The notes under the pieces are model-generated. The model made no database searches. It was given only the letters and a program-made list of their open reading frames with translations, and was not told the origin of the DNA. A DNA stretch of 64,000 nucleotides, taken from contig NZ_RZMZ01000010.1 of assembly GCF_003992675.1 (NCBI RefSeq), forward strand, positions 1-64,000. Reading direction: 5' to 3'. Below, in pieces: positions 25,693-34,864 of the stretch (its first letter is position 1; each line of letters begins with the position of its first letter). A program made the position numbers and the translations under genes. The stretch comes from Flagellimonas marinaquae (GTDB lineage Bacteria; Bacteroidota; Bacteroidia; Flavobacteriales; Flavobacteriaceae).

Positions 25693-25788
25693 CATCCCAA
25701 AATTAGGATTTACCCAATAAAATCGCATACTTTTTAGGGATTACACGTCTTTTTGACAGCACTTTTGATATATATTTAAAGCTAAATT

Positions 25789-25815
25789 GATATATTTATG
25801 CTAAGTAAATATATC
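25789..25815. promoter_or_regulatory. Perfect 10-bp inverted repeat directly before the InsA-like gene
   Basis: GATATATTTA-N7-TAAATATATC ends 4 bases before the ATG at 25820, so a bound protein would block or initiate transcription there. A further GATATAT half site begins at 25767, and GATATATT recurs at 26254 upstream of the porin operon. It is a good candidate for an autoregulatory operator. Confidence 0.6.
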
Positions 25816-25819
25816 TACA

Positions 25820-26233
25820 ATGGAAAGTTGTCCCAATTGCTCTTCAACCGTATTTACCAAAGCAGGGGTCGTACAAGATAGGCAGCGTTATAAATGTAAA
25901 TCCTGCAACTACTATTTTACAGTCCCAAAGTTGGGCAAACAAATTGATGATTATTTTGTAAATAAGGCGCTACAGCTGTATTTGGAGGGCTTGGCCTATC
26001 GGGAAATCGAGCGTATTCTCGGTGTTTCTCATGTGTCCGTTATGAACTGGGTCCGAAAGTACAATATCAAACGGCCATACAACTCCAAATATCATCCCAC
26101 CTACAAAATTTTGAACCACACCGAGCTACAAAAATACTTTCAAAACCCTGAAAATCTCAAAGGTGCTGGCCAGTTGGTGACTGAGCTTGGAGATAAGTTT
26201 ATGCTCATAAAATGGGACAGGTTCAGGGATTAA
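25820..26233 (+). CDS. InsA-type zinc-ribbon/HTH protein, probable transcription regulator
   Basis: A 137-residue protein related to the DNA-binding N-terminal part of IS1-type transposases (InsA). The zinc ribbon has C4, C7, C26 and C29 (CPNC ... CKSC), and a helix-turn-helix lies at about 55-82 (YREIERILGVSHVSVMNWVR). The C-terminal 50 residues have no transposase catalytic DDE domain. No InsB frame, terminal inverted repeats or target duplication flank it, so it is not an insertion sequence. It stands alone just before the porin/symporter/acs block and downstream of an inverted repeat. I infer a domesticated DNA-binding regulator of that block. The domain call is firm, the role is not. Confidence 0.8.
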   Translation: MESCPNCSSTVFTKAGVVQDRQRYKCKSCNYYFTVPKLGKQIDDYFVNKALQLYLEGLAYREIERILGVSHVSVMNWVRKYNIKRPYNSKYHPTYKILNHTELQKYFQNPENLKGAGQLVTELGDKFMLIKWDRFRD

Positions 26234-26253
26234 GTATAGCTATTTTACAAAAA

Positions 26254-26261
26254 GATATATT
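26254..26261. promoter_or_regulatory. GATATATT half site upstream of the porin operon
   Basis: It repeats the first 8 bases of the inverted-repeat arm at 25789, 69 bases before the porin ATG. In such AT-rich sequence chance recurrence is possible. Confidence 0.3.
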
Positions 26262-26329
26262 GGTTTTTATTTCGGCGTAATTTTTTTGGATGTTCGCAGG
26301 GCACATAACCCTCTAACAACCAAACTGAA

Positions 26330-27556
26330 ATGAAACAAATGCTTATCGGAATGACTTTATTCTTATTGGTCGTTCCTAAGTCTTTCTCACAAGGGAATAC
26401 CGAGTACACCGGTGGTTACAAAGTGAGTTTTAATGAAGATGGTACCAAGTATCTCCGTATCATCGCATGGGGGCAATTCTGGGCCCAGTATTCCGACGAC
26501 GTACCTGAAGATGCCAGTAATCTTAACCTGAGCGTACGACGCGCCAGGATTCTTACTTATACCCAATTGAACAAAAAGTTTTTGATTTTGACCCACTTTG
26601 GTCTCAATAGCTTAAACGGGTCCAATTTGAGTCCTACTGGCAAGGGAGAATCCGCTCAACTATTCTTCCATGATTTTTGGGGAGAATGGACTCTAAGCAA
26701 AAATGCAGCGATTGGGGCTGGACTCCATTATTGGAATGGTATTTCTCGCTTGAACAATAGTAGCACCCTAAACTTTATGACATTGGACAACAATCGTCCG
26801 TCTTGGGCGGTATTGGGCCTAAGTGATCAGTTTGCCCGACATTTGGGTGTGTACGCTAAGGGTAAAGTTGGTCGCCTTCAGTATCGGGTATCCTACAACG
26901 AGGCTATTACCAATACCTTGGATTCTGGAAATGACCCTACTCCCAATGGAAGAGCAGTATACCGGGGTCGTGAATTATTGGGAGCTGGGGAAGCTGGCAA
27001 AGTGGTTCAAGGTTATTTTGATTACCATTTCCTCGACGAGGAATCCAACTTTCTGCCCTACAAAGTAGGTTCGTACCTCGGCACTAAAAGAATATTCAAT
27101 CTAGGGGCAGGTTTTCTCAATCACAGAAATGGGGTTGTAGTTATGGATGAGGTTGGCAATATGGAAGGGGAAGATGTAAACATTTTTGCGGTGGATGCCT
27201 TTTACGATGCACCACTTGGTGAGGATGGCTCAGCAATAACTGCCTATGCAGTGTATCAAAATAATGATTATGGTCGTAACTTTAACTTGGGTCCATATGG
27301 AACAGGTAACATGGTTTATGGCCATGTGGGCTATTTGGTTCCTGGGCCCAACACCAAATCACGCTTACAACCCTACTTGTCCTATCAAACCAGGACAATT
27401 GATGCCATTGATGATAATACCACAAGATGGGGAGTTGGAGCCAACCTATATATGACGGGACATCACTCCAAACTGACCTTGGAGTATGCAAATTCCAAGG
27501 TAGGTAATGCCGATGGAATGGGAATGATTACGTTACAAGCACATATTTATTTATAA
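26330..27556 (+). CDS. Outer-membrane porin-like protein
   Basis: A 408-residue protein with a signal peptide (KSFSQ end) and a mature part of alternating strands typical of a 16- to 18-strand porin. Landmarks are the early LRIIAWGQFWAQY and VRRARILTYTQLN strands, as in phosphate-selective-porin-like O/P proteins of Bacteroidota, and a last strand MGMITLQAHIYL. Its position as first gene before DUF4212, the SSS symporter and acs suggests it lets short organic acids such as acetate through the outer membrane. This is inference from context. Confidence 0.8.
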   Translation: MKQMLIGMTLFLLVVPKSFSQGNTEYTGGYKVSFNEDGTKYLRIIAWGQFWAQYSDDVPEDASNLNLSVRRARILTYTQLNKKFLILTHFGLNSLNGSNLSPTGKGESAQLFFHDFWGEWTLSKNAAIGAGLHYWNGISRLNNSSTLNFMTLDNNRPSWAVLGLSDQFARHLGVYAKGKVGRLQYRVSYNEAITNTLDSGNDPTPNGRAVYRGRELLGAGEAGKVVQGYFDYHFLDEESNFLPYKVGSYLGTKRIFNLGAGFLNHRNGVVVMDEVGNMEGEDVNIFAVDAFYDAPLGEDGSAITAYAVYQNNDYGRNFNLGPYGTGNMVYGHVGYLVPGPNTKSRLQPYLSYQTRTIDAIDDNTTRWGVGANLYMTGHHSKLTLEYANSKVGNADGMGMITLQAHIYL

Positions 27557-27574
27557 CAACTAAACCAACAAATT

Positions 27575-27838
27575 ATGTCAGAAAAACAGCAAAGGGCCAA
27601 GGCCTATTGGAAAGAAAACCTCAGATATTTATTGATACTACTGATTATCTGGTTCCTAGTCTCTTACGGAGCGGGAATCCTATTCAAAGATGCATTGAAC
27701 ACCATCCGATTGGGTGGATTTAAATTGGGGTTCTGGTTCGCCCAACAAGGATCAATCTATGTCTTTGTCATACTCATTTTTGTATACGTTCGCCTCATGA
27801 ACAAATTGGACAAAAAATACGGATACGACGAGAAGTAA
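27575..27838 (+). CDS. DUF4212 small subunit of an SSS-family symporter
   Basis: An 87-residue membrane protein with two helices, starting with a charged segment KAYWKENLRYLLILL and ending DKKYGYDEK. This is the DUF4212 family, annotated as the small subunit of a sodium:solute symporter. It lies 22 bases before the large subunit gene, as it does in most genomes. Confidence 0.93.
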   Translation: MSEKQQRAKAYWKENLRYLLILLIIWFLVSYGAGILFKDALNTIRLGGFKLGFWFAQQGSIYVFVILIFVYVRLMNKLDKKYGYDEK

Positions 27839-27860: not shown

Positions 27861-29576
27861 ATGAGTGATGTACAAATTTGGACCTATGTCTTGGTAGCCT
27901 TGTCATTTGGTCTGTATATAGGAATTGCCATTTGGTCCCGGGCAGGATCTACCAAAGAATTTTACGTAGCAGGAGGAGGTGTGTCCCCTTTGGCAAACGG
28001 AATGGCCACAGCAGCGGATTGGATGTCAGCGGCCTCATTTATTTCCATGGCAGGTATCATTTCCTTTGCGGGTTATGATGGTGCGGTGTATTTGATGGGA
28101 TGGACCGGTGGATATGTGCTTTTGGCCCTGCTATTGGCCCCGTATCTGAGAAAGTTCGGAAAATTTACCGTACCCGATTTTATAGGGGAACGCTATTACT
28201 CCAAAACCGCTAGGATTGTAGCGGTAATCTGTGCTTTGATTGTATCCTTTACCTATGTGGCGGGACAAATGCGTGGAGTGGGGATTGTATTTTCCAGATA
28301 CTTGGAGGTGGATATCACCACAGGGGTGGTGATTGGTATGGTAATCGTTTTGTTTTATGCCGTTTTAGGAGGTATGAAAGGAATCACCTATACCCAAGTG
28401 GCACAATATTGTGTGTTGATTTTCGCCTTTATGGTTCCTGCGATTTTTATTTCCATTCAGATGACTGGCAACCCTGTTCCGCAATTAGGATTTGGAGGCA
28501 CCCTTGCCGACGGGTCAGGAACCTATCTGTTGGATAAATTGGATGGTCTTTCCACCGAACTGGGGTTTGCAGAGTATACCGATGGCTCCAAAAGTGTGAT
28601 TGATGTCTTCGCCATCACCCTTGCCCTCATGGTAGGAACGGCAGGTTTGCCTCACGTAATTGTTCGCTTTTTTACCGTTAAACGCGTGCGTGATGCGAGA
28701 AAATCAGCAGGATTGGCATTGTTGTTCATTGCCATTCTCTATACAACGGCCCCTGCAGTGGCCGTATTTGCCAGAACCAATCTAATTGAAACCGTTAGTG
28801 AAAAGCAGTACGCAAACATGCCCGAATGGTTCCATAGATGGGAAAAAACGGGGCTGATTGCGCATGAGGACAAGAACGGAGATGGAAAAATTCAATATGT
28901 AGCTGCACCAGAAGTCAATGAATTAACAGTGGACAGAGATATTATGGTGCTTGCCAACCCTGAGATAGCCAATTTACCAGCATGGGTCATCGGTTTGATA
29001 GCCGCTGGTGGACTTGCCGCGGCACTATCAACAGCAGCTGGATTACTTTTGGTCATATCATCATCTGTTTCTCATGACTTGATTAAAAACGTATTGAAAC
29101 CGGACCTTTCAGAAAAAGGTGAGCTGTGGGCAGCCAGACTTTCTGCAGCCGTTGCGGTGGTGATTGCTGGCTATTTCGGGATAAATCCGCCTGGTTTTGT
29201 GGCCGCCGTGGTCGCCCTCGCCTTCGGTCTCGCAGCTGCATCTTTCTTCCCAGCCATTATATTGGGTATTTTTTATAAGAAGATGAACAGCAAGGGAGCC
29301 ATTTCCGGTATGATCGTAGGTCTATGTTTGATGCTCTTTTATATGCTCAAATTCAAGTTTGGAATTTTTGACGGCGGTAAGGAAGCTGTTGCCGGACTTC
29401 AGGATAGTTGGTGGTTTGGCATATCCCCTGAAGGCTTTGGAACCATTGCGATGATCGTGAACTTTATCGTTGCATTAGTGGTGAACCGGTTTACTCCAGA
29501 ACCACCGGAAGAAGTACAGGAAATTGTGGAGCGTATCCGTATACCAAGCGGTGCAGGAGAAGCGTCTTCACATTAA
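27861..29576 (+). CDS. Sodium:solute symporter, acetate-permease-like (VC_2705 subfamily)
   Basis: A 571-residue SSS-family transporter with about 13 helices. Typical features are the early FYVAGGGVSPLANGMATAAD, GLPHVIVRFFTV and a long periplasmic loop near 315-370 (EDKNGDGKIQY). It belongs to the subfamily that pairs with DUF4212 and is related to acetate permease ActP. With the neighbouring acetyl-CoA synthetase, it most likely brings in acetate or another short carboxylate with sodium. Confidence 0.93.
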   Translation: MSDVQIWTYVLVALSFGLYIGIAIWSRAGSTKEFYVAGGGVSPLANGMATAADWMSAASFISMAGIISFAGYDGAVYLMGWTGGYVLLALLLAPYLRKFGKFTVPDFIGERYYSKTARIVAVICALIVSFTYVAGQMRGVGIVFSRYLEVDITTGVVIGMVIVLFYAVLGGMKGITYTQVAQYCVLIFAFMVPAIFISIQMTGNPVPQLGFGGTLADGSGTYLLDKLDGLSTELGFAEYTDGSKSVIDVFAITLALMVGTAGLPHVIVRFFTVKRVRDARKSAGLALLFIAILYTTAPAVAVFARTNLIETVSEKQYANMPEWFHRWEKTGLIAHEDKNGDGKIQYVAAPEVNELTVDRDIMVLANPEIANLPAWVIGLIAAGGLAAALSTAAGLLLVISSSVSHDLIKNVLKPDLSEKGELWAARLSAAVAVVIAGYFGINPPGFVAAVVALAFGLAAASFFPAIILGIFYKKMNSKGAISGMIVGLCLMLFYMLKFKFGIFDGGKEAVAGLQDSWWFGISPEGFGTIAMIVNFIVALVVNRFTPEPPEEVQEIVERIRIPSGAGEASSH

Positions 29577-29626: not shown

Positions 29627-29657
29627 AATTTTCCATGGAGCCAAGCATAAGTTAAAA

Positions 29658-29852
29658 ATGAAAAAACGACATCAGCAGAAATTAATCCTCATTTCCATAG
29701 TACTTTTCTTCTTATGGAATGTACCCTTCGTTACTTTATTCGATGGGGAGGGGCAGGTGTTCGGTTTTCCCATATTTTACATTTTCATTTTTTCGAGTTG
29801 GTTGATTGCCGTCGTTTTGATGTATATAATTTTAAAACGATTCTATGAGTAA
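29658..29852 (+). CDS. Small two-helix membrane protein before the SSS-histidine kinase
   Basis: A 64-residue protein starting MKKRHQQKLILISIV. One hydrophobic helix at about 8-25, a short loop with FDGEGQVFG, a second helix at about 35-58, and the end LKRFYE. The ATG at 29658 is chosen; the upstream open frame runs through the terminator. It overlaps the kinase gene by 8 bases, so they are translated together. It may be a DUF4212-like partner of the kinase's SSS domain, which would parallel the DUF4212/SSS pair just upstream. No family is recognised with certainty. Confidence 0.8.
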   Translation: MKKRHQQKLILISIVLFFLWNVPFVTLFDGEGQVFGFPIFYIFIFSSWLIAVVLMYIILKRFYE

Positions 29853-32532
29853 CTATGGCGTAGGATTGGTCATTGTGCTGTATTTGTCCATGCTTTTTGT
29901 TATCGCATATGTGGCCGAGAAAAACAAAAGAAGCAAATGGACCAACAACCCTTACGTATACACACTTTCCCTAGCGGTGTATTGTACGGCTTGGACGTAT
30001 TATGGCAGTGTGGGAATCGCATCGAGTTCCGGAATCAGTTTTTTGGCCATTTATTTAGGTCCTGTCTTGGCCATGCCGCTTTGGATAGTCCTTATGAAAA
30101 AGGTAATCCGCATCTCCAAGCAGCACAAAATATCGAGTATAGCCGACTTTATTTCCATTAGGTATGGGAATAACCGTCAACTGGGTGCATTGGTCACCTT
30201 AACCTGTTTGTTTGCCATTATTCCCTATATATCGCTACAGTTAAAGGCAGTGTCCGAAACCTTTTCTTTGATTTCGGCCAAGGGAAGTTATCAGTCCACC
30301 GGATTTTTTGACGATTCCACCTTCTACATTGCATTGCTTATCGCCGTTTTTGTGGCCTTTTACGGAACCCTATCCACCGATACGTCGGAACACCGAAAAG
30401 GGATTGTGGCCACAGTGGCATTGGAATCCATATTAAAACTTTGTTTTTTCTTGGCCATAGGCGTATATGTCGTCTTTTATCTGTTTGATGGCACAACGGA
30501 TATTTACGAACAGGCAAGCCTACGGGAAAATTTTGACCAATTGACCACTTTTGGAGGACTTGGGAACGGGTTCAACTGGTTGTTCACCATTTGTTTATCC
30601 TTTTTCGCCATTTTTTTATTGCCCAGACAGTTCCATGTCGCTGTGGTGGAGAATGACAACGAGAACCATTTGCGTAAGGCCATTTGGTTGTTTCCGCTCT
30701 ACTTGCTCTTGTTCAACCTCTTTGTTATCAGTATTGCATGGGCAGGAAACATACGTTTGGATGCAGCAGTAAACCATGATTATTATTCCTTGTTGTTGCC
30801 ATTACAGCAAAGCGATTACGGCTTGGCAGTGATGGTTTTTATTGGCGGATTCACCACGGTTATATCCATGATCGTAGTCTCTACCTTGGCACTATCCACC
30901 ATGGTCAGTAACAATATTGTCATTCCCTACGGTTTCATCAAAACATTGGTAGAGGGAAATCCTGAGGAAAATGCGAAGCGTATCAAGAATATTAGAAGAA
31001 TCTCCATTTTCTTACTGATCATTGTAGCCTATTTTTTCTACATCCGCTTTTCCGTTCAATTGTCGTTGTATTCCATTGGGTTGATATCATTCTTGATCAT
31101 TGCGCAACTGGCGCCATCGTTCTTTTTGGGATTAACGTGGAGAAGAGGAACGGCACGAGCGGCAGAAACGGGAATGCTGGTTGGCTTGGCCATTGTGTTC
31201 TATACCATATTTCTTCCTGTAATCAGCAATATAGCTAGGCCCAATGTAGATGTTTTAACGGAGGGTTTATTTGGATACGCATGGTTCAAACCTGCCCAGA
31301 CATTCGGCTTTTATTATTTATCCCCGGAGAGTAATGCCTTTTTATGGAGTATGGCATTCAATACCTTGAGTTTTGTTGCTTTTTCGCTTAACACCAAAGG
31401 GAACTATAGGGAAAGGAACTACGCGGAGATGTTTGTCAACCATGAAAATTATGGAAACCTACAAGAAGGAGGATTCATCTGGAAGGGCGAGGCCTATGTA
31501 GCCGACATCAAACGCTTATTGAACCGATTTTTAGGCGAACAACGCACCAACCGGGCCTTGCAGTTGTTCAATAGAAAATACAATATTTCGGAAACTGAGG
31601 AACGTGCGGATGCACGGCTGATCAATTTTTCAGAGAAACTTTTAACCGGAAGTATTGGAAGTGCCTCCGCAAAAATACTGTTGGCTTCGGTCTCCAAAGA
31701 AACCCCTATAAGCTTGGTGGAGGTGCTTCATATTTTGGAGGAGAGCAAGGAGACAAAAGCCAACAATAAATTGCTGCAGGAAAAGTCCAATGAACTGGCT
31801 GCCATGGCACAGCAGCTCAAGCTAGTGAACGAGGAGCTTCGCATACAGGACAAACTAAAGGATGAATTCTTGGATACTGTTGCACACGAGCTCAAAACAC
31901 CGGTTACCTCCATTAAGGCTGCCTCCGAAGTTTTGGAGGATTCCGATATGCCCTCTGAGCTACGGACAAAGTTCCTGAAAAATATAAACAAGGACAGCGA
32001 CCGATTGGACACCTTGATTCGGAATATTCTTGATTTGGAAAAACTGTCAGGTAACCGAACGGAATTGGAAATGGACGATTACGATATGTCGGATACTATA
32101 CAAAAGGCAATACATGGAGTGGAGCAGATTGCATCAAAAAAAGGGGTGAGCATCAAATTTTCGAAAAAACAGAACGTATTTGCGCGCTATGATGAGGACC
32201 GAATTTTGCAAGTGTTGACCAACTTGTTGTCAAATTCCCTTAAATTCACGGAACCACAAACGGGAAAAATTAAAATTCTTTTGGAAGAGCTCGAAGCGGA
32301 AGTGTCTGTCATTGTAAAGGATAATGGTCGAGGGATTCCCGAAGAGGATAAGGACTACATCTTTGACAAGTTCTATCAGTCAAAAAACCAAAACATCAAA
32401 AAACCACAAGGGAGTGGATTGGGTTTGGCGATTTGCAAGAAAATAGTGGAGAGCCATTCAGGAACCATTTCCGTGGACAACCACTATAAAAAAGGAGCAG
32501 TTATACGATTTTCAATACCGAAGGAACAATGA
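29845..32532 (+). CDS. SSS-domain sensor histidine kinase (CbrA/CrbS-like)
   Basis: An 895-residue fusion. The N-terminal half (about 1-500) is a sodium:solute symporter-like domain with 13 or so helices. A linker with a predicted coiled coil near 625-670 (EESKETKANNKLL, AMAQQLKLVNEELRIQ) follows. The kinase has HisKA with H681 in DTVAHELKTP, an N box (TNLLSNSLKFTEP), G1 (DNGRGIPEED) and G2 (GSGLGLAICKK). In proteobacteria CbrA and CrbS use such a domain to link solute flux to a regulator; CrbS/CrbR controls acs. It is coupled to a receiver gene by a 4-base ATGA overlap and followed by acs, so sensing of acetate is a reasonable inference. Confidence 0.95.
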   Translation: MSNYGVGLVIVLYLSMLFVIAYVAEKNKRSKWTNNPYVYTLSLAVYCTAWTYYGSVGIASSSGISFLAIYLGPVLAMPLWIVLMKKVIRISKQHKISSIADFISIRYGNNRQLGALVTLTCLFAIIPYISLQLKAVSETFSLISAKGSYQSTGFFDDSTFYIALLIAVFVAFYGTLSTDTSEHRKGIVATVALESILKLCFFLAIGVYVVFYLFDGTTDIYEQASLRENFDQLTTFGGLGNGFNWLFTICLSFFAIFLLPRQFHVAVVENDNENHLRKAIWLFPLYLLLFNLFVISIAWAGNIRLDAAVNHDYYSLLLPLQQSDYGLAVMVFIGGFTTVISMIVVSTLALSTMVSNNIVIPYGFIKTLVEGNPEENAKRIKNIRRISIFLLIIVAYFFYIRFSVQLSLYSIGLISFLIIAQLAPSFFLGLTWRRGTARAAETGMLVGLAIVFYTIFLPVISNIARPNVDVLTEGLFGYAWFKPAQTFGFYYLSPESNAFLWSMAFNTLSFVAFSLNTKGNYRERNYAEMFVNHENYGNLQEGGFIWKGEAYVADIKRLLNRFLGEQRTNRALQLFNRKYNISETEERADARLINFSEKLLTGSIGSASAKILLASVSKETPISLVEVLHILEESKETKANNKLLQEKSNELAAMAQQLKLVNEELRIQDKLKDEFLDTVAHELKTPVTSIKAASEVLEDSDMPSELRTKFLKNINKDSDRLDTLIRNILDLEKLSGNRTELEMDDYDMSDTIQKAIHGVEQIASKKGVSIKFSKKQNVFARYDEDRILQVLTNLLSNSLKFTEPQTGKIKILLEELEAEVSVIVKDNGRGIPEEDKDYIFDKFYQSKNQNIKKPQGSGLGLAICKKIVESHSGTISVDNHYKKGAVIRFSIPKEQ

Positions 32533-32897
32533 AGCAGAAAAAAATACTGATCGTGGATGATGAACCCAACATTTTGATGTCGTTGGAGTATGCGTTCAAA
32601 AAGAAGGATTTCGAGGTTTTTATCGCCCGGGACGGCACAGAAGCTATAGAAATATCGAACCGGGAAAAACCAAATCTTATTCTTTTGGACATCATGATGC
32701 CCGAGATGGATGGGTATGAGACCTTGAAACAGGTTAAGGACAATGAGGATTTGGCACACACCAAGATTGTGTTCCTATCGGCAAAAAGTAAGGAAAAAGA
32801 TATTGAAAAAGGCTTGAAAATGGGCGCAGACCGTTATTTGACGAAACCATTTTCGATGAAAAAAGTAATTTCTGAAATAGAGGAGCTATTGGCATAG
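32529..32897 (+). CDS. Receiver-only response regulator
   Basis: A 122-residue CheY-like receiver: acidic pair D10/D11, phospho-acceptor D54 (LLDIMMPEMDGYE), the conserved S in FLSAK and K in LTKPF. It ends right after the receiver fold with EELLA and has no DNA-binding or enzymatic domain. It must be the partner of the SSS-histidine kinase whose stop it overlaps. The regulator CrbR of proteobacteria has a LuxR-type output here, so another protein must carry the signal onward in this organism. Confidence 0.93.
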   Translation: MKQKKILIVDDEPNILMSLEYAFKKKDFEVFIARDGTEAIEISNREKPNLILLDIMMPEMDGYETLKQVKDNEDLAHTKIVFLSAKSKEKDIEKGLKMGADRYLTKPFSMKKVISEIEELLA

Positions 32898-32956: not shown

Positions 32957-34864
32957 ATGAGTAATTATAATATCAAGCACTTGGAGGAATATTTTCAGGT
33001 GTATCGAAAATCCGTAAGAAACCCCGAGGGATTTTGGGAAGAAGTAGCCGAAGAACATTTCCAATGGCGTAAAAAATGGGATTCCGTTTTGGAATGGGAC
33101 TTTACAAAACCAGAAATCAGCTGGTTTAAAGGAGCCAAATTAAATATCACCGAAAACTGTATCGACAGACATCTTCGCATCCGTGGAGATAAAACGGCCA
33201 TCCTTTTCGAACCTAACGACCCCGATGAAGAAGCGGAACATATCACGTACCGCGAATTGCACGAGCGTGTGTGCAAGTATGCCAATGTTCTCAAGGAGCA
33301 GGGTGTCCAAAAAGGGGATAGGGTAGTTGTTTATTTGTCCATGATACCAGATTTGGCCATAGCCATATTGGCCTGTGCCCGAATTGGGGCCATACACTCC
33401 GTAGTTTTTGCAGGTTTTTCATCTACAGCACTGTCCACTCGAATCAACGATTGTGGTGCCAAAATGGTACTTACCTCAGATGGTTCGTACCGAGGAACCA
33501 AGGTAATAGACCTGAAGGCCATTGTGGATGAAGCACTGGAAAAATGCCCTGATGTGAAAACCGTTTTGGTGACCAAGCGCACAGGAGGGAAAGTTATCAT
33601 GAAAGCAGGTCGTGATAAGTGGGTACAGCCACTTTTGGACAAGGCCTATTCGGATTGCGTACCCGAAATTATGGATGCCGAGGACCCATTATTTATCCTT
33701 TACACTTCTGGCTCTACCGGACGCCCAAAGGGTATGGTCCACACAACGGGAGGTTATATGGTGTACACCGCTTATACTTTTAAAAATGTATTCCAGTACC
33801 GAGAGGAAGATGTGTATTGGTGCACTGCTGATATTGGCTGGATTACCGGTCACTCCTACATTGTTTACGGGCCTTTGGCCAATGGGGCCACCACCGTTAT
33901 GTTTGAAGGAGTACCTTCCTATCCCGACTTTGGTCGGTTCTGGGATGTGGTGCAGAAGCACAAGGTGACCCAGTTTTACACCGCGCCAACCGCTATCCGG
34001 GCCTTGGCTAAGGAAAATCTTGATTTTGTGACCAAGTATGACCTTTCCAGCCTGAAAGTTCTGGGAACTGTTGGAGAGCCCATCAATGAGGAGGCCTGGC
34101 ATTGGTACAACGATCATGTTGGGGAAAAGAAATGCCCCATTGTAGATACCTGGTGGCAAACCGAAACAGGAGGAATACTAATTTCACCCATACCATTTTC
34201 CACACCGACCAAACCCACCTACGCGACCTTGCCGATGCCAGGAATACAACCTGCATTGATGGATGAGAGTGGTCAAGAGATCAAAGGAAACCAAGTGGAC
34301 GGCAGATTGTGCATCAAATTTCCATGGCCCTCCATAGCCCGGACCATCTGGGGCAATCACCAGCGCTACAAGGACACCTATTTCTCTGCATTTGAAGGCA
34401 AATATTTTACAGGTGATGGCGCCTTGAGGGATGAGGTGGGCTACTACCGCATCACGGGAAGGGTGGACGATGTCATCATCGTATCTGGTCATAATCTGGG
34501 AACTGCTCCGATTGAAGATGCCATTAATGAGCATCCTGCCGTGGCCGAATCGGCCATTGTTGGATTCCCGCATGACATCAAGGGGAATGCACTTTATGGC
34601 TACATCATTTTAAAAGAAACAGGGGAGGACCGTAATCGGGATAACCTGAAAAAGGAAATCAACCAATTGATTACCGAACATATTGGCCCGATTGCAAAGT
34701 TGGATAAAATCCAATTTGTGGAAGGACTGCCCAAAACACGAAGTGGTAAGATTATGCGAAGAATTCTCCGAAAAATAGCATCAAAAGATACCAGTAACCT
34801 GGGCGATACATCAACCTTGTTGAATCCAGAAGTGGTAGAGTCGATTATGAAAGATAGTCTCTAA
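32957..34864 (+). CDS. acs: Acetyl-CoA synthetase
   Basis: A 635-residue AMP-forming acetate:CoA ligase, which activates acetate via acetyl-AMP. Motifs are YTSGSTGRPKGMVHTTGG, the acetate-pocket region DTWWQTETGG, the hinge YYRITGRVDD and the C-terminal PKTRSGKIMRR with the acetylatable lysine K598. In SGHNLGTAPIED the residue after His is Asn513, where the Salmonella enzyme has Arg526, so phosphate contacts differ at this point. Length and order of domains are normal. It is last in the porin/symporter/sensor block, supporting an acetate utilisation role. Confidence 0.95.
   Translation: MSNYNIKHLEEYFQVYRKSVRNPEGFWEEVAEEHFQWRKKWDSVLEWDFTKPEISWFKGAKLNITENCIDRHLRIRGDKTAILFEPNDPDEEAEHITYRELHERVCKYANVLKEQGVQKGDRVVVYLSMIPDLAIAILACARIGAIHSVVFAGFSSTALSTRINDCGAKMVLTSDGSYRGTKVIDLKAIVDEALEKCPDVKTVLVTKRTGGKVIMKAGRDKWVQPLLDKAYSDCVPEIMDAEDPLFILYTSGSTGRPKGMVHTTGGYMVYTAYTFKNVFQYREEDVYWCTADIGWITGHSYIVYGPLANGATTVMFEGVPSYPDFGRFWDVVQKHKVTQFYTAPTAIRALAKENLDFVTKYDLSSLKVLGTVGEPINEEAWHWYNDHVGEKKCPIVDTWWQTETGGILISPIPFSTPTKPTYATLPMPGIQPALMDESGQEIKGNQVDGRLCIKFPWPSIARTIWGNHQRYKDTYFSAFEGKYFTGDGALRDEVGYYRITGRVDDVIIVSGHNLGTAPIEDAINEHPAVAESAIVGFPHDIKGNALYGYIILKETGEDRNRDNLKKEINQLITEHIGPIAKLDKIQFVEGLPKTRSGKIMRRILRKIASKDTSNLGDTSTLLNPEVVESIMKDSL

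Follow-up and report, generated by a model that had tools for sequence, protein, structure and literature searches.

Sensor kinases of the CrbS type have an N-terminal SSS (SLC5) domain that is joined by a STAC domain. In the portions of the literature cited here, both acs and actP are under CrbS/R control; CrbR, an activator of the LuxR family, works via an inverted repeat, and MxtR/CrbS has a receiver at its C-terminus (PMC5715377, PMC7918813). A second described point of reference is InsA of the insertion sequence IS1 which, as far as the cited excerpt of its source goes, is located between IRL and IRR, binds the element at its two ends and represses the IS1 promoter that overlaps the left end (PMC12428005).

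Here we describe a locus in a 64,000-nucleotide stretch of Flagellimonas marinaquae DNA (the window, meaning the whole stretch analyzed) that can be set beside both. It shares with CrbS/CrbR (MxtR/ErdR) an acs gene, a symporter and a kinase whose N-terminus is symporter-like; however, its regulator is receiver-only (122 aa), unlike CrbR, which is of the LuxR type with a DNA-binding domain, and its kinase is without a receiver, unlike CrbS/MxtR as described in the cited portions (PMC5715377, PMC7918813). Because CrbR is of LuxR type and MxtR/CrbS has its own receiver in those same partial accounts, the cluster here would be differently built for a similar job. The only DNA-binding protein recognized in the cluster is an InsA-like zinc-ribbon/HTH protein, for which we use the label ISA. 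It is like InsA of IS1 in combining a zinc ribbon with an HTH, and the layout is like that of IS1 in the cited excerpt, with candidate sites at both gene ends (PMC12428005); it is unlike InsA in falling below the family cut-off, in its own C-terminal region, in lacking the DDE domain and in being a single copy at a fixed locus. The downstream transporter genes belong to the families of the VC_2705 symporter/DUF4212 operon and, compared with that operon, ISA marks a locus variant that has a porin, a kinase and a receiver as well.

Gene Content of the Cluster

All genes of the cluster lie on the plus strand of the window. ISA (25820 to 26233) precedes an outer-membrane porin-like protein of 408 aa (26330 to 27556; NF040900, 58.9 bits, below the cut-off of 150), DUF4212, which is the small subunit of a sodium/substrate symporter (27575 to 27838; PF13937, TIGR03647), a VC_2705-family sodium/solute symporter (27861 to 29576; TIGR03648, 871.9 bits), a small protein of 66 aa (29652 to 29852), a CrbS-like histidine kinase of 895 aa with an SSS-like N-terminus (29845 to 32532; HisKA, HATPase_c), the receiver-only response regulator (32529 to 32897; PF00072 at residues 6 to 117) and acetyl-CoA synthetase, acs (32957 to 34864; PF00501, PF16177, PF13193). 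The 66-aa protein, taken from its open reading frame, looks membrane-like by eye, matches no family above cut-off and is also found beside the kinase in relatives. Together, acs and the transporter families suggest acetate (short-chain carboxylate) as the substrate of the cluster. In many relatives a second acs-type gene, 36–41% identical to the window acs, follows the receiver (L080, L082, L084–L088, L090, L238–L242, L244–L246, L250–L252).

The porin leader (26290 to 26330 in the window; L128–L207) shows a possible hairpin around GCACACAAAACCAA, the arms of which seem by eye to covary (GGATGTT..AACATCC in the genus, AGAGTTTAG..CTAAACTCT elsewhere). Single-sequence folding of this leader was modestly below that of shuffles, with a mean z of -1.62 over 68 of the 80 loci, RNAalifold on 25 of the 80 sequences returned no pairs, and Rfam returned no match.

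ISA and Its Relation to IS1 Transposases

The sequence-only reading of this DNA had proposed that ISA is a stand-alone InsA-type protein of 137 residues, with neither a catalytic partner nor element ends, and in these respects it has largely stood up. The 137-aa open reading frame is present, a zinc ribbon and an HTH are matched within it and no catalytic part lies in frame; no InsB-like frame was found in the loci examined, no IS ends were recognized at the window locus, and no ISA homologues were seen away from the cluster among the loci examined. The zinc ribbon (25829 to 25906, plus strand; signature CPNC...CKSC) is formed around C4, C7, C26 and C29, which are invariant across 57 aligned sequences, and the HTH (25949 to 26059, plus strand) comprises helices 44–56, 60–67 and 71–80 of an AlphaFold2 model with a mean pLDDT of 78.7. 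Structurally, the HTH resembles those of GcrA, IstA and Tc3 at Z 6.0–6.8, a range that can mean a common arrangement only. It is followed by a conserved C-terminal region (26081 to 26230, plus strand) that is identified from the alignment and the model, contains a near-invariant stretch (TELGDKFMLIKW) and is predicted to form a strand, a helix and two strands. Foldseek and VIA-align gave no clear relative of this region, the match list being mostly HTH, and a PDB sequence search with the ISA protein gave no significant match. The DDE catalytic domain (InsAB') is absent, the frame stopping at 137 aa; the open frames of ISA orthologues span 137–196 aa, bar one contig-cut fragment of 72 aa.

The similarity of ISA to InsA is clear at the level of sequence. 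The IS1 family transposase model NF033558 matches ISA with 72.3 bits, under the NCBIfam cut-off of 100 and over model positions 1–112 of 199, and the IS1/IS1595 zinc-binding model NF050000 matches with 37.7 bits, exceeding its cut-off of 28; both models are matched by all 57 aligned relatives. Indeed, hhalign of the ISA profile against six IS1 transposases of the same family aligned residues 3–113 with 98.6% probability. Such similarity would fit domestication from IS1 as well as descent from a common ancestor with IS1, two origins that are indistinguishable here; since ISA is spread over several families, domestication, if any, would be old.

ISA is a single copy in its own genome, where the five other matches reach only E 0.23–0.26, and one orthologue-level copy per genome was found in the genus and family samples. 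With a median dN/dS of 0.014 among the 29 genus orthologues (13 of 406 pairs had usable dS), the gene is, by this sequence-based measure, under strong purifying selection, which is present in the C-terminal region and weaker there than on the HTH.

Distribution and Genomic Context

Orthologues of ISA occur in 30 of 71 genomes of the genus (29 full length and one, G061, cut by a contig end), with four further genomes showing only IS1-type matches (E 5e-7 to 8e-7), and in 50 of 397 genomes of the family, where seven more have weak IS1-type matches only. In the phylum sample, 35 of 395 genomes match ISA at 1e-8, and they extend to further families within the order, the class and the phylum; weak matches (E 6.5e-9 to 1.4e-29) account for five of the 35, and four of these five carry in-stretch stop codons. 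Among named genomes, the best 80 of 564 relatives are by title Flavobacteriaceae and near relatives, the nearest of these 80 being Muricauda/Allomuricauda/Flagellimonas.

The porin is the next gene after ISA, on the same strand, in 58 of 58 orthologue loci of the best-hit set (window included; porin identity 35–100%) and in all 80 named loci (the best 80 of 564). In the complete family sample, 42 of the 50 genomes with ISA also encode this porin. The family count of the porin comprises 49 genomes at E 1e-68 or better and leaves out G118, where the match is a fragment of 55% identity at the end of a contig; at 1e-5 the porin is matched in 84 of 397 genomes, mostly at about 30–35% identity. A porin without ISA is found in 7 of 397 family genomes, six of which are also without the kinase. 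Conservation of the ISA position next to the DUF4212/SSS/acs block had been named as a check of the sequence-only reading. The adjacency of ISA and porin holds in both best-hit sets, and DUF4212 is encoded in 70 of 71 genus genomes whether ISA is present or not. The 20 ISA-less genus loci that we read gave no match to porin, kinase or receiver; acs directly follows the symporter in 16 of them, and no acs was seen in L109, L110, L121 and L125.

Eight family genomes with ISA are without a porin of the window type (L102–L104, L081, L084, L085, G134, G349). In L102–L104 its position is taken by an open reading frame of 392–398 aa whose start resembles a signal peptide, and in L081, L084 and L085 there is a gap of 1.3–1.5 kb at this point. 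G134 and G349 (loci L078 and L079; genomes of 1.6–1.7 Mb) have a divergent ISA of 48–49% identity before DUF4212, symporter and acs, with no porin, kinase or recognizable operator; in L078, the one of the pair that was aligned, the ISA C-terminus has diverged and ends early.

The gene order around ISA recurs across families. Ten of 13 loci from other families (L238–L249, L252) run from ISA to kinase and receiver and then to an acs-type gene; L247 has acs but no kinase, L248 has kinase and receiver with acs on the opposite side, and a contig end truncates L249. The same ISA-kinase-receiver-acs order is seen in L250 and L251, which belong to Flavobacteriaceae. The window porin is matched in 9 of the 13 other-family loci and DUF4212 with the symporter in 2 of 13; in the remainder the transporter may differ. 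The next open reading frame in L235 and L236 looks, by its sequence, like an MFS transporter.

A Direct Repeat before ISA

Immediately 5' of ISA lies the proposed left operator (25781 to 25813, plus strand), two direct GCTAAATTnnTATA units 19 bp apart that occupy 25781 to 25794 and 25800 to 25813. Anchoring of 70 upstream regions gave 66 full-length segments (L078 and L079 were without an anchor, and two lay at an edge). Across these 66 orthologue segments, which are related sequences with 46 distinct 33-mers among them, 19 columns are invariant (GC, AA, TATATTT, TG, AA and TATA) and three more agree in 65 of 66, the consensus GCTAAATTrnTATATTTATGCwAAwTwAnTATA representing two direct 14-bp units 19 bp apart. 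The left 33-mer is near-unique, with one other match in its own genome, at 3 mismatches (up to 3 allowed), and none for a reversed control pattern. The strict pattern fits 77 of the 80 named loci, the other three deviating in the TATA parts. Of the 70 gene-positive loci, 68 have two-unit scores of 21–24 out of 24 and the two divergent ones score 15, compared with 16 or less in all 27 gene-negative upstreams (7 with a porin, the other 20 drawn from the 41 genus genomes without ISA). Outside Flavobacteriaceae, 12 of 15 scorable loci score 19–23 of 24, including loci of 57–58% GC, and each of the 12 exceeds the maximum (16–19) of 200 mononucleotide shuffles; the two-unit site was not found in L231, L235 and L236, and L234 and L237, with too little upstream sequence, were unscored.

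This conserved unit is not the one that had been put forward from the sequence alone, namely a perfect inverted repeat. That repeat, GATATATTTA-N7-TAAATATATC, does exist at 25789 to 25815, four bases 5' of the ATG, and is the sole match in the window at up to 3 mismatches, with 0 in 100 shuffles; however, by eye its symmetry is complete only in the window and the nearest relatives, and its arms overlap the direct units, which are what is conserved. The two GATATAT half sites proposed along with it are likewise present, at 25767 and 26254, but by eye the 25767 copy is not conserved; the one beginning at 26254 falls inside the weaker right-hand operator described below.

A single unit scoring 10–11 of 12 (ACTAAATTGATATA or ACTAATTTGATATA) stands 5' of DUF4212 in 6 of the 20 ISA-less genus loci (L108, L113, L115, L116, L118, L120); from its sequence and place, it looks like the scar of a joint deletion of regulator and porin.

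The repeats could also be read as core promoter only, that is, as a TATATTT -7 box plus context unrelated to ISA. TATATTT within the left repeat resembles a Bacteroidota -7 box and is invariant, and the lone unit kept by those six ISA-less loci fits the same reading. We nevertheless regard it as improbable: the second unit (invariant TG, AA and TATA, 19 bp on) is not known to belong to the promoter consensus, none of the 27 gene-negative upstreams has the two-unit site, loci of 57–58% GC retain it, and an inverted copy follows the ISA stop codon.

A Weaker Inverted Copy before the Porin

The latter copy, the proposed right operator (26235 to 26267, minus strand), lies by the stop codon and 5' of the porin, with its unit in the window at 26235 to 26248. 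It emerged from a single-unit test on 43 loci that were hand-picked before the result (five from the genus, the rest from other genera, with L078, L079 and N-containing loci left out): the mean best score on the minus strand is 9.47 of 12, versus 8.04 (sd 0.11) in dinucleotide shuffles (z 13.3), and the controls gave z -2.4 for the plus strand and z 26.1 for the left side. Over the 80 named loci, the mean best score is 9.64 on the minus strand versus 7.74 on the plus strand, of 12. The second unit on this side is about 21 bp off rather than 19 and is without GCT, and the 33-mer at a fixed 19 bp is therefore a poor model of it (20 of 69 loci at p<=0.05 singly). Taken alone, the right site of the window has p 0.245 against shuffles, and this putative site is recognized only by comparison across loci. 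In the comparison of left with right per locus, 46 of 70 loci fall at 5 or fewer of 100 shuffles, and the window is not among them. A position-weight scan of the right region with tiny pseudocounts, which put 30 of 69 loci at 5 or fewer of 100 shuffles and the best site on the minus strand in 65 of 69, proved overly stringent as a score; match counts with shuffled and opposite-strand controls took its place. L102 and L104, two loci with another open reading frame in the porin position, show a readable right site; L085 and L103 do not. In loci from other families the right unit at fixed spacing is not a general feature; in L222, L223 and L233 an inverted GCTAA-N4-TATA can be made out by eye no more than about 40 bases from the stop codon. 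In this form the suggested recurrence of a motif appears to be sound, with conserved, binding-site-like repeats at the ISA start and before the porin.

Inverted copies of the operator motif thus sit on both sides of ISA, much as InsA lies between IRL and IRR in the cited excerpt (PMC12428005), and this arrangement, together with the profile match of residues 3–113 to IS1 transposases, could indicate that ISA is an IS1-like relic, degenerated or non-autonomous, the flanking sites being the terminal inverted repeats of a once mobile, now immobile element. Such a relic is very improbable given a single ISA copy per genome, a gene order that is constant across families and a dN/dS of 0.014. The operator showed no visible likeness to the sequences beside IS1-type transposase genes in Flavobacteriaceae, although ungapped inverted-repeat searches around those genes yielded no consistent ends and a likeness to the element ends themselves may exist. 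A relic of this kind is possible as an origin and ill-fitting as a present state.

We hypothesize instead that ISA is an old, dedicated local transcription factor that regulates itself and controls the porin-symporter operon, which the conserved sites and their placement make probable. Its zinc-ribbon/HTH part would bind the GCTAAATTnnTATA direct repeat (19 bp) immediately 5' of the ISA start codon and, in addition, the weaker inverted copy between its own stop codon and the porin operon. As the direct-repeat sites lie just before ISA, autoregulation would follow the manner of InsA on IS1, within the cited excerpt of that source (PMC12428005), ISA repressing itself from a left site that covers TATATTT. 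The inverted copy 5' of the porin would, in turn, place porin-DUF4212-symporter expression under its control. That ISA activates the porin operon is a guess.

Association with an SSS-Like Kinase and a Receiver-Only Regulator

The kinase, which has HisKA and HATPase_c above cut-off and acs two genes further on, is named SSS-like on three grounds: its N-terminus scores 14.2–15.3 bits against SSF, under the cut-off of 22.8, it matches the neighboring symporter by BLASTP at E 1e-4, and its residues 8–465 match the solved chain 10ed_A, titled "histidine kinase," at E 7.4e-63. We take this chain to be a CbrA-like transceptor. There is no Response_reg match in the kinase, HATPase_c extending to its end, and the regulator beside it consists of a receiver only, of 120–127 aa, in 27 of 27 relatives' loci.

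The sequence-only reading had linked ISA to the porin, symporter and acs genes; its tightest partner proves to be this kinase with its receiver-only regulator. With the kinase searched at 1e-40, 48 of the 397 family genomes have both ISA and the kinase, 2 have ISA only, 1 has the kinase only and 346 have neither, counts that, like the Fisher p, ignore phylogeny and are inflated by shared descent. In the genus (first 600 residues of the kinase, 1e-10), the kinase is found in 30 of 71 genomes, 29 of them shared with the ISA set of 30; the exceptions are G048 (75% complete), with ISA and without the kinase, and G055 (contig ends inside the porin), with the kinase and without ISA. The state of the kinase tracks that of ISA in at least five mixed-state genera (g1, g2, g11, g133, g154), and the association is therefore unlikely to reflect one ancestral event.

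The lone kinase-only genome of the family, G339 (L101), encodes a 40% identical kinase and a receiver-only regulator, with no ISA. Kinase and regulator are divergent from the porin there, and the porin is followed by a small membrane protein, presumably a TRAP subunit.

Given a receiver without an output domain and ISA as the only recognized DNA-binder, the simplest wiring would run from kinase to receiver to ISA. That ISA serves the pair of SSS-like kinase and receiver-only regulator as a separate DNA-binding output has, in our judgment, about an even chance. The fuller model, a split three-part system in which the kinase phosphorylates the receiver-only regulator, this regulator acts via ISA and an element-end layout has been reused as operators, is put forward tentatively, as something short of an even bet.

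Alternatively, ISA may be a one-component regulator with a metabolite sensor in its C-terminal region, the kinase and receiver being mere neighbors that act elsewhere. This region has the near-invariant TELGDKFMLIKW, a predicted strand-helix-strand-strand unit and purifying selection, though less than the HTH; moreover, G339 has the receiver-only pair without ISA, and two small genomes hold a divergent ISA without the kinase. Yet ISA accompanies the kinase in 48 of 50 genomes and the porin in 42 of 50, and in at least five genera (g1, g2, g11, g133, g154) presence or absence of the kinase goes with that of ISA. Furthermore, the C-terminus of ISA from the kinase-less L078 is diverged and short, and the operator is unrecognizable in both kinase-less genomes. 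On this balance we consider a one-component ISA somewhat doubtful.

Significance of a Possible Split Regulatory System

Our literature search, which was incomplete and largely at the level of titles and abstracts, found no description of the ISA regulator. Proteins of this family match the transposase models NF033558 and NF050000 and are hence easily passed over as IS debris; the evidence so far points instead to a local regulator that is old and strongly selected, and ISA would offer a plain example of the stable use of an IS1-type DNA-binding module in regulation. If the split three-part system is true, the front half of a transposase became the part through which a two-component system for acetate uptake reaches DNA, and such a system would occur in several families of its class, Bacteroidia. 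The near-unique, readable proposed operator makes the route from a receiver-only regulator to DNA directly testable.
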